Below are positions 130 through 59,190 of a stretch of DNA of 64,000 bases, piece by piece. The notes under the pieces were generated by a model that saw nothing but the letters and a program-made list of their open reading frames with translations, was not told the DNA's origin and did not search any database. Position 1 is the first letter of the stretch; every line of letters starts with the position of its first letter. The position numbers and the translations under genes were made by a program. Source of the stretch: Balneicella halophila (lineage in GTDB: Bacteria; Bacteroidota; Bacteroidia; Bacteroidales; Balneicellaceae); NCBI RefSeq assembly GCF_003096835.1, contig NZ_QENZ01000004.1, positions 1 to 64,000 of the forward strand, in the 5' to 3' direction.

Positions 130-351
130 TTACTTCTTATTGTCTTGTAGTAAAGGCTTTTTTAAGGGACTACTGGGCTTCGGAAAGTAAACTATTGAAA
201 CGGGTGTCTTGTCTCGCACCATCTTTTTCCTATATTTTATAGATTCTTTTTCTAACCTCTCTATCAATATATCTACTTTCGATTTTTCGGGTAGCTGAGA
301 AGAATTTGATTGATTGTCAGCTTCGTGATTGGTGTTCTTTTCTTTTTTCAT
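130..351 (-). CDS. Small hypothetical protein, charged, 73 aa
   Basis: I do not recognise this protein. It is short, strongly charged (rich in Lys, Glu, Asn and Ser) and has no signal peptide or membrane segment. The middle (about residues 25-45) looks helical with many Lys/Arg; the end is Pro/Lys-rich. It starts at an ATG, converges on the rRNA terminator, and a structured GC-rich element lies 75-145 bp upstream of its start. It could be a genuine small gene or a chance frame. Confidence 0.4.
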   Translation of the reverse strand: MKKEKNTNHEADNQSNSSQLPEKSKVDILIERLEKESIKYRKKMVRDKTPVSIVYFPKPSSPLKKPLLQDNKK

Positions 352-424
352 ACAATAAAAATATTTAAATTAATAAATCATTATTGTATTTCTAAAAACA
401 AATAAGGGGAATGTTTGCGTTTAT

Positions 425-494
425 TTTGGATTGGATTCCCGTATTGTTTTACCACCGTGGAGTGCCCCTCTCGGTTGGTATCACATCAAAGTGA
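425..494 (-). other. GC-rich structured intergenic element
   Basis: The gap 352-605 is very AT-rich except for this block. Two inverted repeats are visible: ACCACCG (451-457) with CGGTTGGT (472-479), one bulged base, and TCAC/GTGA (481-494) with a six-base loop. On the minus strand it would form a leader about 75-145 nt ahead of the 73-aa ORF. It could be a structured RNA, a relic of a mobile RNA element, or protein-binding DNA. I do not recognise a known riboswitch. The rest of the gap shows nothing clear. Confidence 0.35.
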
Positions 495-605
495 TTCAAA
501 ATACAGTGTAAATATTGTAAATTTTTATTTAATGTTCTAATTGGACTTAAGGTGTAATGTAAAAAAATGATAATATTAATTCATCTTATTCCTAAATAAA
601 TAATG

Positions 606-2760
606 TTACAACTCCCATATAACACCAAAATAAATGGTGCGTTTTCCATAAGAATCATAGAATTTCTTCGAGAAATCCTTGTTATAATAAATTCCACTTT
701 GATTGTTTATGTTAAAAATGTTGGTTATGGACAAAAAAGGAATAATAGCACCGTCGTTATTGAGAGGTGTGTATCGACTGTATCCTAAATCAATTTTATT
801 GTAATTTTCTAATTGTTGGCTATTAATTATTTCACTTAATAGTGGAATTTGATACTTAAAACCCGGTTTAGTGATGATTTCTTTAATGGGTGTATAGTAA
901 CTTCCAGGGTGCGTTATGTAGCTAAGAGAGATAGAACCCCACTTTAGTGTAATATATTGCAATGCTACTTTTGTTAAGTAATTAAAATCGTATTTCCCAT
1001 TAAATTCTTTGTTGCCTTCTTGTTGTTTTTGATTGATAAACGAATTGGATATCGTAAATTTTAACTGATCAGTAAGAAGGTATTTTAAGTAAGTTTCTAC
1101 CCCGAATGTTTTTACCTTATCTACTGAAGTAAAATAATCAAAAGCTTGTTTCCCTTTTTCTTGTTTATAATATACAGAACTTTTAAATCCTATCTTTTTT
1201 CTAATAATTGAATAATCAATTGCCAACTGCTTACTTGTTAACAATGTGAATTGTTTATTGTAATAATTTGGCGTTGCATAACTAACTTTCATAATTTCCA
1301 AGACTCATCATGACAGACTGTTTTTCATCAAAATTGTATTTCATTCCGAACTGTGCATTCCAACGTTGAGTTTGATTGTTTATAGGAATATTAGCTCGTA
1401 ATGCTGCAGAAAAGGAGAGTTTGTCAGACATTGCATAATCACTATACGCATAAATATCTGCCATATGTTTCGAAATCTCATCCTTAGAAAGTTCTTTTGG
1501 GTCTTCGGGTGCCATTGCAAAAGGGTAGATAGGAATACTATCATTAAAACGGTTTTTATGACAATCATAAGAAATACCTGTTTGTAAATTTATTTTATCT
1601 GACAGTTGACTTTTGAAGTTTACCGAAGTATAGATTTGTTGTACTTTCTTCTTAGATTCGATACTTCCGTAATTCAAATCCTGATTAGAGTGGCATATAC
1701 CTGTATTAACACTTAGTACTCCTTTTGGAGTATAATAATTCAAGTTATTTACAGAAAAGAAACGTTTCTTTTTTGCATTCGCTTCTCCACTATAATTCAA
1801 ACTGTGTACATTGACTTTAAAATCCTCCGATACTAAATAATTATAGGAATTAATTTCTACTCTTTTCCCTAACTTATAATGAACGTTACATCCTATATCC
1901 TTAGTATGGAAAGACTTTAGGTTCGGTAAGTTCTTTTGCTGCATCTTAACAAATGCTTTTGAGTTATTGTAATTTCCATAGAACTGCAAAAAATTGTTTT
2001 CGTTATTTTTTATCTTCTGTGAGAGAAAAAAGCCTATAGCACCTATAGAAAGTGAGAGTTGCTACTGATTTTCAGGAAGTCGCTTTAGTGTTTGTATCTC
2101 TACAAGTCCCGCACTGCTATTGCCATAGGTAAGAGGCGGGTTGCTGGCATAGACATATTCTTTGTCAATAACTTCCGTACTGAACAAACTAAAAAATCCT
2201 TGGTTATTTAGTTGGCTACTTCGTACCGGAGTATAAACAGGAACGCCATTAAGTATTACGCGTGTGCGGTCGGGAGAAGTGCCTCGTAAAGAAGGATTAG
2301 CTGTTTCATCAATAGTAGTAGATGCCGGCATTAAAGTAATAGCCTTCAAACCATCAGCTTGTGCAACGGGATTAAAGTATATATCTAATTTTTTAATTTT
2401 GGTCACTGAAAACTTTTGTGAAATAGGGTCTTTCGCTTTAATGATGACCTCTCTCAGCGTTTGGCTATCTTCTTTCAAGACAATAGTCATTGATTTGTTA
2501 GTTAAATCTGATGACAATTTTACTTCTTTAGTTTGGTAGCCAATAAATGAGAAGACTAAGATTCCAGTACTTTCCTTTAGTTGCAGGTTAAAATTTCCAT
2601 CAAAATTAGTCGAAGTACCTAATTCGGATTGTGTTTTTTTATAGATATTCACTGCAAAGATCGGTTGTCCTTTTTTATCTACTACTTTTCCTTTCAGTTG
2701 AACTTGTGCAAAGCTCTGACTTAGAATCAAGCAAAAGAATATGATTAATTTCCATTTCAT
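606..2760 (-). pseudogene. TonB-dependent receptor, broken by one nonsense and one frameshift
   Basis: As one reading it would be about 718 aa, a normal length for an outer-membrane TonB-dependent receptor. The N-terminus has a signal peptide ending SFAQ, then a carboxypeptidase-regulatory-like domain (about 20-105) and a plug domain with the NPSLRG and ILNGVPVY elements (about 105-230). An in-frame TAG at 2062-2064 interrupts the chain just after the plug; the same frame then stays open into barrel sequence (LSLSIGAIGFF, then LQFYGNY). Near 1285-1300 the frame shifts; GNY is followed in the next frame by KVSYATPNYYN and runs to a typical barrel end (IYFGVIWEL). It lies 2 bp after a TPR-like gene and belongs to a decayed four-gene module. 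The substrate is unknown. Confidence 0.85.
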
Positions 2761-2762
2761 AA

Positions 2763-3514
2763 TTATTTGTCTTTTAGCTCAGTGATTAATTGATTCAGAA
2801 GATAATTTTCAGGATATTTCTTCACCGCTTCCTTGTGATATCTTTTGGCCTTTTCCCAATCCTTTTTACGGATATACCAGCTAACCAATAATTCATAGGA
2901 CTCTTGTTTTCCCCAAGAAGGAAGCATACTGTTTTTTACCTTTTGATCTGGTAATGAGATTGCTTTTAAAAGATATTCTTCAGAATGTTTGCCACCGCCA
3001 TATTGTTCTGGCGTATAGAAGTCATTACTGGCGAGGGCATAGTAAGCTCTTAAGTTTGTACTATCTTTTTCGATGGCTAACTTGCCATTTTTTTCAATTT
3101 GACGAGAAAGAAATATTATTTTTATCATATTTTTGAACTGAATGTCAAATCCTTGAGTAAGAGAAAGTAAAGCATAATCTTCTGATGTTTTATTTTCTAT
3201 ACTTTCTAATATATTAACTGCCTTGTCAGCATGTTTTTCTGAGTTTTTTTATCATTTTGTGAGATATAATAGATAGCCGTATAGTACTCACTGTAAGCCT
3301 GCCAGTATTTGAAAATCTTTTGTTGATGATCGTTGTATTGTTGTTCCAATTTATCATTTAATTCAAGTAAATTTTTTGAGTCTTTATTTTCTTGAGCCTT
3401 AATGAATGTTTGTAATACTTGTTCTTGAATGTTCTTGTCACGAGTTTGTGCATAGCTATTTCCTGTACAAATTAGTAGGATAGTAACGATGATATATTTG
3501 ATAATTGTTTTCAT
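2763..3514 (-). pseudogene. Secreted TPR-like helical protein, frameshifted in a 7-base homopolymer
   Basis: The N-terminal part starts MKTIIKYIIVTIL with a signal peptide ending NSYAQ and runs to about 3240. The frame is then lost in a run of seven T (3244-3250; A7 in the mRNA). In the next frame the protein continues without a stop (SEKHADKAVNILESIE, later LRAYYALASNDFY and DWEKAKRYHKEAVKKYPEN), giving about 250 aa in total with TPR-like helices. Genes like this often precede TonB receptors in Bacteroidota. The shift may be a real mutation, a slippage-switchable site or a sequencing error. The ATG at 3514 is preferred over the upstream TTG because the signal peptide starts there. Confidence 0.75.
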
Positions 3515-3546
3515 GATATTATTTTTTTTAAGTGTTGATATAAATA

Positions 3547-3563
3547 AGTTTATTTTATAAACT
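3547..3563. promoter_or_regulatory. Palindromic operator upstream of TPR/TonB genes
   Basis: Perfect inverted repeat AGTTTAT-TTT-ATAAACT, 33 bp upstream of the TPR-like start. The same 17 bp, extended to 22 bp by AAATT, recur at 4505-4526 upstream of the membrane-protein/regulator pair. Their placement around a winged-helix regulator gene suggests they are its binding sites. Confidence 0.7.
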
Positions 3564-3604
3564 AAATTGTTTAAAAAATGAAGCATTCAATGAATACCTC
3601 AAAA

Positions 3605-3886
3605 TTATTTGATATATTCTTTTAAAGCATTTACATATTCTTCAAAAGCGTTTAGTCCTTTTGGAGTAAGGTGAGCAGTAGTATTTGGGTAATTGTTTTT
3701 AAAAGTTTTCTTTACTGTTAAATACCCGGCTTCCTCCAATTTCTGAATTTGTACGCTTATATTTCCAGCAGTAGCTTTAGTTACTTCTTTTATATACGTA
3801 AATTCAGCTTTTTCATCAGAAACCAATAATGACATGATAGCCAGTCTCAGTTGCGAATGTAAAAGCGGATTGAGTTTTTTAAACAT
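3605..3886 (-). CDS. Winged-helix transcriptional regulator (MarR/HTH_34-like)
   Basis: A 93-aa one-domain DNA-binding protein. The sequence PLLHSQLRLAIMSLL, the recognition-helix region (TKATAGNISVQIQKLEEAGYL) and the wing ending HLTPKGLNAFEEYV match the small winged-helix regulators of Bacteroidota. There is no ligand domain. It overlaps the end of the preceding membrane-protein gene by 8 bp, so the two are probably translationally coupled. It is the only intact gene of the module and is the likely binder of the two identical palindromes on either side of it. Confidence 0.85.
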   Translation of the reverse strand: MFKKLNPLLHSQLRLAIMSLLVSDEKAEFTYIKEVTKATAGNISVQIQKLEEAGYLTVKKTFKNNYPNTTAHLTPKGLNAFEEYVNALKEYIK

Positions 3887-4461
3887 GACGACGTTTTTTA
3901 TGAGCGCTATAAAGTTGAATGCCTGGTATAAGAAAAATAAGTAACCCTACACCTGCTGCAACTAAAGAATGATATATTCCAGGAATAAATATTGAAAAAT
4001 AAGTTAATATTGTTCCAAAAATGGTGAGTGTAATCCACAAGCTGTTTTTTAAACTTAGAGCAGACGCCATAGATGCAAAACAGAATGGCAGAAAAAGAAC
4101 TGCTGTAAAACCAATGCCAAATTTATTTCCAAATACAAAACCTTTAAGAATGCTAAGCAACCAGCATTCCCCATATCCAACCAGTCAAGTCAATACTTTC
4201 ATTGTTTTTGGCTTTCTTGTGATTGTCTCTAAAACCAGCAATGAATGTAATAATAGATCCTGGTATCATAGTAAACATCCATACGTATTTTATTAGATTA
4301 TACTGTTCCATTTGTAACATTACGAAGTGAGATGTACCCGCAATTATAAAGAGTACTCCCCAAAAAAGTTAAAAGAAGCCATTTTCCTCATACTTTTGTT
4401 TTCGCTGATCAATAATGCTTTGGATAATCTTAAAACTATCCTGTGTGCTTAAATTTTCCAT
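3879..4461 (-). pseudogene. Membrane protein, broken by a nonsense codon and a frameshift
   Basis: Reading from the ATG at 4461 gives MENLSTQDSFKIIQSIIDQ, then after about 30 codons an in-frame TAA within the first hydrophobic segment (NGFF-stop-LFWGVLFIIAG). The same frame then continues through a second segment (KYVWMFTMIPGSIITFIAG) to WIWGMLVA. Near 4160 a frameshift joins it to LSILKGFVFGNKFGIGFTAV and further membrane helices ending in AHKKRRHV. The intact form would have about five or six transmembrane helices. This kind of gene commonly pairs with a small winged-helix regulator; its function is unknown to me. Confidence 0.75.
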
Positions 4462-4492
4462 GATGAATATTTTTAGTGTTATAAATATAATG

Positions 4493-4500
4493 CAAATATA
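4493..4500 (-). promoter_or_regulatory. Promoter -7 element of the membrane/regulator unit
   Basis: On the minus strand this reads TATATTTG, matching the Bacteroidota TAnnTTTG element, 31 bp before the ATG at 4461. The palindrome at 4505-4521 ends 4 bp upstream of it, inside the -7/-33 spacer, where a bound repressor would block RNA polymerase. Confidence 0.55.
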
Positions 4501-4504
4501 GAGT

Positions 4505-4521
4505 AGTTTATTTTATAAACT
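4505..4521. promoter_or_regulatory. Palindromic operator upstream of membrane/regulator genes
   Basis: Second copy of AGTTTAT-TTT-ATAAACT, identical to that at 3547-3563 including the AAATT flank. It lies in the promoter spacer, implying autorepression by the winged-helix protein encoded in the same unit. Confidence 0.7.
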
Positions 4522-12755: not shown

Positions 12756-15700
12756 CTAGTATATCAAATAAAAATAACCGGATTTCTCTATCAATTTTCC
12801 GTTTTTATCGTGGAATTCTATAATATAAAAGTAAACACCTGCAGGTAGTTTTTTGTTCAAAAACGATGATTTCCCATATCCTTTAAAGTATTTTTTATTG
12901 TATCCATAATTTTCCTCACTAAATACAACTTTACCTGACTTGCTGAAAATAGAAACTTTATTCGAAGGATAGTTTTTTAAGAACTCTAGTTTAAGTATGT
13001 CGTTAATATTGTCACCATTAGGATTAACTATTTGTGTAAACTCTATTTTACACTTAGAACTAATATCTGGTACGCAAGGATCATTATCATCTACGTCTAT
13101 CTGATCAACTAAACCATCATCATCTTTATCTAAAATATTACTCTCAAGAGCATCAATAACACCATCACTGTCTGTATCTATTGGGTTTAAAATATTACTA
13201 ACTTCTTCAAGATCTACTATATTATCATGATCTGTGTCCTTATTATTAGGATCTGTTCCAAGCAAGCTCTCATTTTCATTAGTAATTCCATCATTATCAG
13301 AATCACAAGGGGAGCATTATTATCCTTTATGACTGTTATAGTTGAGCTAGCAACTTGACTACAGGGCATATTGCTTCCAATAGTATAAATGTAGATATTT
13401 CCTTCATTTGTCCACATACCACCTTCATCTGGGTTTCCTTGTAATGCATTAAATAAGTTCTCTTCCGTAGGTGTTTCCTTTTTGCAAATGGTTATCGTAG
13501 TACTAATTCCTGGATTAAAAGTGACTTTGTCATTAACTGTTACCTCATGGTAACCGTCTTTGCACACGTTTCATCAGGAGTAAAGATGTATTCTGTCGTT
13601 TTGGTGTTGTCAAATTGAGGGCTCCAAGTTCCTGTAATACCATTTTTAGAAGTAGTCGGCAAACTAAAATCAGTTCCTTTGCAGACGGCAGGAATTTGCT
13701 CAAAAGCAGGAGTGACTTTTTCATTGGCCATTACTGTCATAGTAACGGTCTTTGCACACGTTTCATCAGGAGTAAAGGTGTATTCTGTTGTTTTGGTATT
13801 ATCAGGCAGAGGACTCCAAGTTCCTGTAATGCCATTTGTTGAAGTAGTCGGCAAACTAAAATCAGTTCCTTTGCAGGCAGCAGGTATTTGCTCAAAAACA
13901 GGAGTAATTTTCGGAAGAATTGTGATAGTTGTTTTCTCCGGTAATGCATTTTCACATTCTAATAAAGGGATCCTAATATTTATTAGGGTAATAACTTGTG
14001 AAGTAGTGGCGTTATTAATGGTTATTGTGGCTTTCCCTTCAGAATTTAAAGTTGTAGAAGATGTATCTCCATTTATTTCATATGTTACCACAGAAGAGGC
14101 TGTTCCTATTATTTCAAATGTAGCATCTTCTCCAGCACATATTTCAGTTGCTGTATCACTTACATTGGCTTTTGGAGAACAATCTACAACTGTGAAATGC
14201 ACTCTGTTTGAGACTTCTTTATAAGTATCATTCGTAAAGATTGACATATAATAATTACCTGGTTCTTTAGGTAGATTTTTTGAAGGTATTGCAATACTTC
14301 CCTTGGACAAACCGTTAAAGTATGTATAGCAATAACCTGAATTTGGATTTGTGCTTTGGTCTGGAGTGTAACCCTCTTTATATATACCTATCCAATCTTT
14401 TATTATTCCGGGAGCATTCTCCCAATTAGGAGTGATCGTCTCATTGAGTTTATAGATACTTGGATTATCTTTTGTCCCTTGTCCTTTATCTAAAAATAGT
14501 TCGGTAATGATACCTTGCCCTACTTTGAAATTAACAATATTCCCTATTTGCATTTTTGATGTTATACCTTTCTCTATACTCCAAGCAGATGGGGTCACAA
14601 CTTCAATGTAAGTTTCTGCATAATAGTATCCTTTTTCTAAGCCGTTTATTGTGATGGTATTATTTTGTTGTTGACCAATATTTTCTATTTTTATCGGGGT
14701 AACCTTTCCTTTTTTGTAAACAGAAATATATCCTTTTACATCAGATTCTAATACAGGAGCATTGTTATATTGTAAAATCATTTCTTCTCCGGTATTGTAT
14801 TCTAATTTATTGGTAATTAATTTAATAATAGGTCCTACATAAAATGAGGGAGAATGAGCAATGTAACTATACGAACCATTTTTTGATAGATAGGCATAAT
14901 AAATACCCGGTGTAAAAGCATATTTTATATTCCCAGAGGCAGTACCTAGATTCTTAAAACTGATAGAACCATTTTCAATACCATTGGTATAATCCCATGC
15001 CCAAGAATAATTACTGCTACCAGCACTACCAGGTTTTTGCGAAGGAGTATAAATACCAACCCATGCATAAGGATTTATAGATGAATTAGAAAAGTTTGTA
15101 ATGATTTGGTCATCATGTAATTGATAATAAATTTTATCAGTAGAAAGTTCGGGAGTCGCTGGTGTGCTATTTGTTATAGTAAACGTTTTTATTTCGCTCC
15201 AATCTGACCATTCAAGATTTTTATCTCTTGTACGTGCTTTGATATAATAAGTTCCGTTGGAGAGGGTATATTCATCCGTCTTCTCTTCTGAACGTAATTT
15301 TAACTCTTTAATATCTACATTTTCGTTTTGGTTAACTGTTATGTCTTTTCTGTCTACTCTTCCAAACCAATTTTCAAAATCTCGATATATTTGTTTTTCT
15401 ATTCGAGCAAAATCCTCGGTTTTTGAGATGACAAATTCAGTACTGTTTAGTGTTTCATTTGTATTACTGCCAGGAATGAAATTTACAGAGGCATCAATGG
15501 GAAGATCTTTAGTATTATCGAGTGTTAGTGTTGGTTGCTCAGGTTTATTTTTATTTTTATATCTATGGAATGTGTCAATTAGTTTATCTTGTTCATAATA
15601 TCCATTAACAGTTCCTATAGAATAGGATTCAACATTAAAAGTGCCTTTATTTACGTCTATATCAACTATCTGATAAGCCCATTCTGTTAATGTCTTTTGT

Positions 15701-16824
15701 ATGTCTGGCATGTCTTCCTCTTTGCTATCTCCCCAATACTGATTCCAAGCTGTTCCCCCAGAAATAATGTGATAAACAGGTCTATCTTTCAATTGCCCCC
15801 GGCTGTATAGGTGATGGTGAGCGCCTATATGCATCACATATTTATCAAATTGTGCTAAATAGGGAACGGCTCTATCTCTAATAAAAAGATTGATATCTGT
15901 AGGATATTGTTCAGCACCATACGGTCTATGCCCTCCGGAGAGAATCCAGTCAACTGTAGGGGCATTATTTGCAGCTTCCATAATCCGTTGCATCCATTCA
16001 TATTGAGTATCTACTGTATTATTAAATTCAGTATCAAAACCTAAGTAGAGGATATTCCCGATTTGTTTAGCATAAAAGTTTTCAGTTCTGAATTTTGCTT
16101 CTGGATATAATTCAGGTTTATACAAAATCTCCTCCTCATCTAGAATAAAAAAATCCCTGTAGTAACCTATTTCTTTTTCACCTCCAAGACCTGCAACACC
16201 AAACATGGCACTCACCTCATGATTTCCAAGGAGTGTATGTATTGGAACATAAGGGGAGATTTCTTTGTTGTGGGCAAAATGTATATTCGCATATTGCGAG
16301 CAAGTTCCGGCATCTACTTAATCACCAACCATAAATATGCTTGTAACAGCATCGTCTGGAGACCCTGGTCCATATTTCTCTGTAATTTTCTTTTTAGCAG
16401 CTCTAACAAATTTTTCATATCGTTCATTGTTTAACTGATTGTCTCCAAGTATTAAAAGTCTGATATGACCATCCTGAGTAACAGCTTCTCCCGGGTTTGG
16501 CAAAGTTTTAAAGCTGAAAATATCAGAAGATAGATTTCCAGACATTACTTTATAATAATATTTAGTATTAGGTGCTAAGTTCTCTAGTTTTATAGAGTGA
16601 TAATTGTAGTTGCAAAAATCATCATATGAACCGATAACCTCATTCTCTAAATTATCTGGAGATGTTCCGTAAATAACTTTTGATGTCTCTTCAGAATAAA
16701 TCCAGTTAATATGTATAGAATTTGGTGATACAGCTTGCAGATATGGATCTATTTGAGAGAAACTATTAGTAATAAACAAGAATGTTATTAAACTAATCAG
16801 CAATGAAATTTTTTTACGAAACAT
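12756..16824 (-). pseudogene. Secreted metallophosphatase with Ig-like repeats and type IX secretion C-terminal domain, broken
   Basis: The whole reading is about 1350 aa. It has a signal peptide (ending NSFSQ), a purple-acid-phosphatase-like N-terminal beta domain (about 25-110), a calcineurin-like phosphoesterase domain (ILGDNQ; GNHE; SGGHRPYG; GAHHHLYSR), several Ig-like modules, a 64-residue repeat, Ca-binding thrombospondin-3-like repeats (DTDSDGVIDA) and a gliding-motility-type C-terminal sorting domain (NPNGDNINDIL). Three lesions are visible: an in-frame TAA at 16318-16320 inside the metal-binding motif (MVGD-stop-VDAG, where Gln is usual), a 1-base loss near 13549, and a frame change near 13309. 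All coding after the first lesion is otherwise recognisable. Confidence 0.88.
13553..13880 (-). repeat. 192-bp imperfect tandem repeat within the phosphatase pseudogene
   Basis: The segment TGCACACGTTTCATCAGGAG recurs at 13561 and 13753, a period of 192 bp (64 codons). The encoded unit runs from EQIPAACKGTDFSLPTTS to DETCAKTVTM, with a further partial unit at each end. These are adhesin-like Ig repeats. Confidence 0.8.
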
Positions 16825-16861
16825 AATTTAAGGATTTATCGAAATTGTAATTTGTCGTACC

Positions 16862-58041: not shown

Positions 58042-59082
58042 TCATTTTATCGAATAATTAGTTCCTGGTCCTGTTCCAAATTTCTCGATTAAGTTTTGTT
58101 TTATCAATTCAGGCAGAATTCTTTTCACTGTCGGGTTCGGAATTCCAAGTCTTTTGGCTATATCTCCGGATTTGCAACCTGCATTATTCTCAATGAACGT
58201 TAAAATTGATTTTTCACGTGGTGATAATTTTGTTTTAATACCCACATTTTCAAGTTTTGACATTAATTGTGTTTGAATGCTTACAAGTGCGTTTTAAAAG
58301 AATTGAACCCATTCTGTCACATTTTCATTGGGTCTCTGTGCCTGGCAACTTCTTAAAACTCGATAATATTCCCTCTTTTTGTGCTCTATTTCGTGTTCTA
58401 AACTGACATATTGAATCCATTTATATTCATTTTTTAGAAGAAGTAGAGTGTAAAGCAATCTGCTCAACCTTCCGTTACCATCTTGGAATGGATGAATACT
58501 AACAAATTTTTAGGCAAACAATGCACATTTCACTAAAGGGTGGGTTTCTTTGTCATTTACATACCAATTCATTAATTGGCTCATGGCATCTTGTGTTGGA
58601 AATCCCGCTTCTGTTGTTTGAAATATTCTCTGTCTTGTGCCATCGGGTAATTTTTCTTCCACAGCGTTACAGTGTTGCTTATAATCTCCTTTGTGCCAGT
58701 CATCTTTTTGACTGTATTTTAATAAAATATTGTGTAAATTCTTTAAGCTATTTTCAGTAATTGGTATGTCCTCAAATGAATCAGAAATTAAATCTAATAC
58801 TTCAAAATATCCAACTACTTCTTGTGAGTCTCGGTCATCTATTTTTTTAATATCAATCTCTTCAAGCAATACTTCAACTTCCTTATTAGACATTTTTGAG
58901 CCTTCAATCCTTGTTGAAGCACCCACACTACGAACAGTTGCAATTGTTTTCAGTTGCTTTAGACTCTGCTTTTCCTTTTTTTCGATTGAAGTCCAAGAGG
59001 CATCAAATCTATCAATTTGACTTATCAATCGAATTATGTCCCAATCAATATGTAGGCTAAATGTATGTACCTTATTTACCAT
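58042..59082 (-). pseudogene. Fic-family AMP transferase with C-terminal winged helix, two in-frame stops
   Basis: From ATG 59082 a single frame spans about 346 codons. The N-terminal inhibitory motif STRIEG is intact. At 58510 a TAA interrupts ALFA-stop-KFVSIHPFQDGNGR, where an aromatic residue is usual just before the catalytic HPFxDGNGR. A second TAA follows EWVQFF, after which the frame continues NALVSIQTQLMSKLE into a winged-helix domain (58263-58042; GDIAKRLGIPNPTVKRILPELI). The intact protein would be an auto-inhibited AMPylating enzyme fused to a DNA-binding domain. The 73-aa helix-turn-helix could still be made alone from ATG 58263. CGATATGA repeats lie upstream. Confidence 0.88.
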
Positions 59083-59105
59083 AAAAAAAAATACAAATAA
59101 AAAAT

Positions 59106-59190
59106 CGATATGATACGATATGATGCGTTTTTATTCGATAAATATTTGATAGAAAGTGATACGATATGAGCTCTTATTATACGATAATGA
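59106..59190. repeat. CGATATGA direct-repeat cluster upstream of fic
   Basis: CGATATGA occurs at 59106-59113, 59116-59123 (10 bp apart, one helical turn) and 59162-59169, with a degenerate CGATAATGA at 59182-59190. The longer unit TGATACGATATGA is present exactly twice (59111 and 59157). It lies 24-110 bp upstream of the fic start, as for an operator. The rest of the gap (59083-59311) holds nothing else clear. Confidence 0.7.

Follow-up and report, generated by a model that had tools for sequence, protein, structure and literature searches.

The DNA analysed here (the window, the first 64 kb of contig C4 in a genome of 2.09 Mb on 11 contigs) contains an uptake module of four minus-strand genes that is probably a recently pseudogenised operon of the HusA/HusB type, accompanied by its own repressor and operators. 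The genes encode a membrane protein, an HTH_34 regulator, a TPR-like protein and a TonB-dependent receptor. In order of transcription, the module comprises the following features.

4505 to 4521, palindrome without strand: operator 1, AGTTTAT-NNN-ATAAACT, upstream of the membrane protein gene
4493 to 4500, minus strand: TATATTTG, a presumed Bacteroidota-type -7 promoter element, four bases downstream of operator 1
3879 to 4461, minus strand: membrane protein gene, broken; ATG at 4461, six helices predicted
3605 to 3886, minus strand: HTH_34 winged-helix regulator, intact, 93 aa; PF13601 match at 9.2e-32
3579 to 3601, minus strand: terminator-like hairpin between the regulator and the TPR-like gene, from a pattern scan (consensus match only)
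3547 to 3563, palindrome without strand: operator 2, identical to operator 1, upstream of the TPR-like gene
2763 to 3514, minus strand: gene of a HusA-like, TPR-like exported protein, broken; ATG at 3514, relatives' profile matches HusA
606 to 2760, minus strand: TonB-dependent receptor gene, broken; ATG at 2760, carboxypeptidase-like and Plug domains

Lesions, orthologues and genome erosion

The membrane protein gene is interrupted by an in-frame TAA (4369-4371) and a frameshift at about 4153-4184 before its final stop at 3879. In the TPR-like gene the frame is lost at a T7 run (3244-3250, an A-run on the coding strand) and resumes later, with the end at 2763. The receptor gene contains an in-frame TAG (2062-2064), shifts frame at about 1282-1304 and ends at 606. 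An initial annotation made from the sequence had named this gene order and these five lesions, all of which were confirmed by three-frame translation of the minus strand and an ORF listing. Its statement that the regulator alone is intact also holds, as the 93-aa frame is open and the other three genes are broken, and the operators announced in its title proved to be two identical perfect palindromes. Moreover, the alignment with orthologues that it had proposed yielded orthologues without these lesions, which are thus breaks in real genes and not mis-called ORFs. Recoding of stop codons was considered and rejected, given that the internal stops are both TAA and TAG and co-occur with frameshifts, so that recoding would be unable to rescue the genes. 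A search for another, undamaged copy of the module elsewhere in the genome gave none; a TPR-like match on contig C8 is a 29% relative in a different gene neighbourhood, further receptor matches are weak, and neither a second membrane partner nor a second regulator was found in the genome.

The same four-gene order occurs in six other Bacteroidota loci, i.e. in a Saprospiraceae MAG (L016), in Flavobacteriaceae MAGs (L029 and L034, the contig of the latter ending inside the receptor gene), in members of the same taxonomic order (L074 and L075) and in one of the same class (L083). Receptor identity to the window, over nearly the full length, is 47% for L029, 46% for L074 and 35% for L083. The receptor of the window has a Plug domain (PF07715, 28.1 bits versus a cut-off of 23.9) and stays below the SusC/RagA cut-off (TIGR04056, 368.25), with 90.9 for its broken N-terminal piece and 86.7 for the full-length L029 relative. 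The TPR-like gene of L029 (L029:7298-8131) has an early in-frame stop of its own, which may reflect either an error in the MAG or an independent second loss. The membrane protein and regulator of the window are closest to those of L016 (41% and 69%), and its TPR-like protein and receptor are closest to those of L029, L074 and L075 (about 50% and 47%), with only 32% and 29% for L016. This split in nearest relatives suggests that the regulator pair and the uptake pair were joined more than once, a hint from five or six sequences.

In maximum-likelihood trees computed per protein, the branches of the broken TPR-like protein and receptor are no longer than those of their relatives, so that the decay of the module appears to be recent on that scale. 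It is also not confined to the module, as the window contains ten lesions in three loci (the uptake module, a metallophosphoesterase protein and a Fic-domain protein), all within 14% of the sequence (post hoc and indicative only). Half of them are clustered in the module, i.e. in 5.9% of the window (binomial P 1.4e-4, post hoc). The metallophosphoesterase protein (12756-16827, minus strand), which ends in a type IX secretion (CHU_C) signal, is affected by an in-frame TAA (16318-16320) and frame changes near 13540 and 13290, and the Fic-domain protein with a winged-helix end (58042-59130, minus strand) by two in-frame TAA codons. Seven stretches of the genome were sampled. Visual inspection of ORF fragments in four arbitrarily picked 20-kb stretches gave approximately three more genes that are probably broken. 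Sampled stretches contain glycosyltransferase genes with likely breaks as well as a repeat-rich surface protein whose frame is interrupted by a TAG (L066:2868-5023, L065:16550-18640). With broken genes beyond the module, both in the window and in the genome samples, the simplest reading is ordinary genome erosion, moderate and ongoing. The loss of selection on the uptake module assumed in the initial annotation fits, with several module genes broken, orthologues without lesions and other broken genes in the genome.

Alternatively, the breaks might be sequencing or assembly errors in a functional module. In favour of this, a homopolymer run is the site of one lesion, and a contig end at an rRNA operon is within 5 kb of the module. 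However, nonsense codons, as opposed to homopolymer indels, account for two of the five, the ten lesions of the window hit three loci only, none of them housekeeping, and a uniform error was rejected (post hoc). Moreover, the neighbouring genes, which we take to be aspA and cobalamin-type genes by their sequences, are open. We therefore regard an artefact as unlikely and genuine decay as the better reading of the module. At its start, the window appears to include the 3' terminus of a 5S rRNA gene, as judged from its nucleotides; Rfam did not report this gene. A SAM-I/IV riboswitch (412-509, minus strand; 50.2 bits, gathering threshold 41.1) is followed by a 73-aa ORF (130-351, minus strand) without a Pfam match and then by this rRNA end; the riboswitch is either an orphan or the controller of this small protein.

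Operators and the intact regulator

The operators both read AGTTTAT-TTT-ATAAACT, one preceding each transcription unit, and the hairpin between the regulator and operator 2 agrees with a division into two units. Within the entire 2.09-Mb genome, exact matches to AGTTTATNNNATAAACT occur only twice, both in the module, and sites with up to two mismatches number 38 versus 51 for a reversed control pattern. We read TATATTTG as a -7 element, assuming the Bacteroidota consensus TAnnTTTG, and the spacing between operator and -7 element recurs in most related loci. As operator 1 overlaps the promoter, with this element only a few bases further downstream, binding of the regulator there would obstruct the promoter, which makes the HTH_34 regulator a likely autorepressor.

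Equivalents of operator 1 in related loci are located approximately 620-650 bp before the regulator start, and equivalents of operator 2 lie 294-307 bp after it in L016, L019, L025, L029, L034, L035, L074 and L075. Loci were also retrieved by the regulator alone. Of their 38 regions upstream of the membrane protein gene, one of them from the window, 21 contained RGTTTATNNNATAAACY with up to one mismatch (shuffle mean 0.06, maximum 2), as did 8 of the 41 regions downstream of the regulator (0.005 in shuffles). These counts are not fully independent, as some loci are close kin and the pattern was widened after relatives had been seen; despite this partial dependence, the operator excess is far outside the range of shuffles. 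A variant, GGTTAAT-NNN-ATTAACT, occupies the equivalent place in many Bacteroidales loci.

The regulator matches HTH_34 over the whole domain (109.5 bits versus a cut-off of 27) and shares 56-70% identity with its closer relatives. Its intactness is no evidence of retained function, as its gene makes up only 282 of 3768 coding bases and five random lesions would miss so small a target with a probability of 0.68; its survival needs no selection, and branch lengths gave no signal of selection on the regulator either way. The initial annotation had suggested that the regulator may act on other targets, and this lost its footing with the exact operators being restricted to the module. Control of other genes, perhaps via weaker sites, might still keep the regulator under selection, and its open frame, a sequence normal for the HTH_34 family and a near-operator (AGTTTAC-AAC-ATAAACT at C5:252419, between two genes in a stretch whose sole ORF is a doubtful one of 142 aa) would agree with this. 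On the other hand, near-matches are no commoner than those of the control pattern, the other one-mismatch site (C5:148870) is inside a long ORF, and chance alone suffices to spare the gene. We consider selective retention very unlikely and prefer chance survival, with the caution that a small intact regulator within a broken operon is just what chance gives.

Membrane protein homologues adjoin the regulator in most related loci. In many loci of Bacteroidota and of Ignavibacteria type, the two occur together while the uptake pair is absent. The neighbours of this cassette vary, e.g. transglutaminase-like proteins, FGE-sulfatase-domain proteins, an M28 peptidase and a DUF2306 membrane protein. 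In L013, L014, L017, L019 and L031, a cassette with the same operator type precedes transglutaminase-like genes, which are fused to an FGE-sulfatase domain in L017 and L031. The membrane partner has no match to a Pfam family. An AlphaFold2 model of the L029 relative has six long helices (pLDDT 81) and no significant Foldseek match in the PDB (best E 0.2), so that no function can be read from the fold, a result that is not proof of a new fold either. The cassette resembles other pairs of a regulator and a membrane inhibitor, in arrangement only. Our literature search found no paper describing a membrane protein/HTH_34 cassette. We tentatively propose, at somewhat less than even odds, that this cassette is a one-component switch which is widespread in Bacteroidota and has so far escaped description. 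Its operator, located in the promoter spacer, would be fixed (RGTTTAT-NNN-ATAAACY) and its cargo would vary, with HusA-like/TonB-receptor pairs for porphyrins or YcaO-made peptides as one case.

The ligand of the intact module

The imported substrate had been left open in the initial annotation and can be narrowed, as the TPR-like protein is HusA-like. A profile of the TPR-like protein compared with the PDB had a single significant match, HusA PG_2227 of Porphyromonas gingivalis (6bqs, E 6.4e-9); this profile was built from the sequences of three relatives, excluding the broken window protein, and the match spans only 76 of its positions, within the C-terminal half. The window and the module relatives share motifs around YTPxxYGGGK and PSWG, which recur with small changes in relatives from YcaO clusters. 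The predicted fold of the L034 protein aligns with HusA (Z 14.9, rmsd 3.4, 189 aligned), and unrelated TPR proteins reach 17.4; as they fit as well or better, the fold comparison adds little. The TPR-like gene adjoins the receptor gene in the window and in all module relatives, and with the TPR-like protein as a distant relative of HusA, the pair resembles HusA/HusB. HusA, a haemophore of the TPR-like type, binds porphyrins and presumably delivers them to the TonB-dependent receptor HusB (PMC6173696). By analogy, porphyrin or haem would be the most likely ligand of the module. Genes for ferrochelatase and uroporphyrinogen decarboxylase (URO-D) are open in the genome; haem synthesis is thus retained and haem import would be dispensable.

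A different ligand, namely a thiazole/oxazole-type (YcaO-class) modified peptide that another organism would produce, is suggested by relatives of the TPR-like/receptor pair that lack the regulator and adjoin YcaO and SagB-type dehydrogenase genes in four genomes (L076, L077, L078 and L085), with long M50-type protease genes near three of these four pairs. The genome of the window has no match to PF02624 (YcaO), in line with a peptide of foreign origin. However, tblastn detected no YcaO, SagB or M50 homologues in the 3-14 kb around any of the six four-gene modules, and the sole characterised relative binds porphyrins (PMC6173696). We thus give a peptide ligand roughly one chance in four and continue to favour porphyrin or haem for the module, while the occurrence of homologous pairs in YcaO clusters speaks against a family restricted to haem; the TPR-like/receptor family may serve several hydrophobic ligands. 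A literature search on YcaO together with TonB receptors returned nothing relevant except a graspetide paper, in which TonB-linked outer-membrane proteins occur in RiPP clusters of Bacteroidota and export, not import, is predicted (PMC8939145). In a further genome, the receptor of a regulator-free TPR-like/receptor pair (L084:1-1737) is cut short beside a transposase-like stretch at a contig end.

A working model and comparison with known systems

In the working form found in relatives, the winged-helix repressor and its membrane partner would form one transcription unit and the HusA-like binding protein and TonB-dependent receptor a second one, both starting at a promoter region that bears the same palindromic operator. 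The regulator would repress itself and the uptake genes until released by a signal, probably relayed through the membrane partner. By comparison with HusA/HusB, the binding protein might capture a hydrophobic extracellular ligand and pass it to the receptor. In the module studied here, small lesions have broken the membrane protein, the binding protein and the receptor, leaving the regulator unhit with only two exact operators. While the decaying module itself is a case of ordinary genome erosion, useful by-products are a clear operator prediction for a common, apparently uncharacterised regulator family of Bacteroidota and a link among HusA-like haemophores, TonB receptors and YcaO peptide clusters.

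The module shares with HusA/HusB of Porphyromonas gingivalis (PMC6173696) the combination of an exported TPR-like binding protein and a TonB-dependent receptor, as well as the significant profile match. It differs from that system in its control, which involves an HTH_34 protein, a membrane partner of this regulator and conserved operators, in the low identity and in having three of four genes broken. The regulator itself agrees with HTH_34 (PF13601) winged-helix regulators in its full-length domain match, and differs in that it is paired with a membrane protein in a conserved two-gene cassette. Likewise, the receptor genes of L076, L077, L078 and L085 are linked to modified-peptide biosynthesis as are the TonB-linked proteins of RiPP clusters (PMC8939145), in contrast to the window module, which is without biosynthetic genes.
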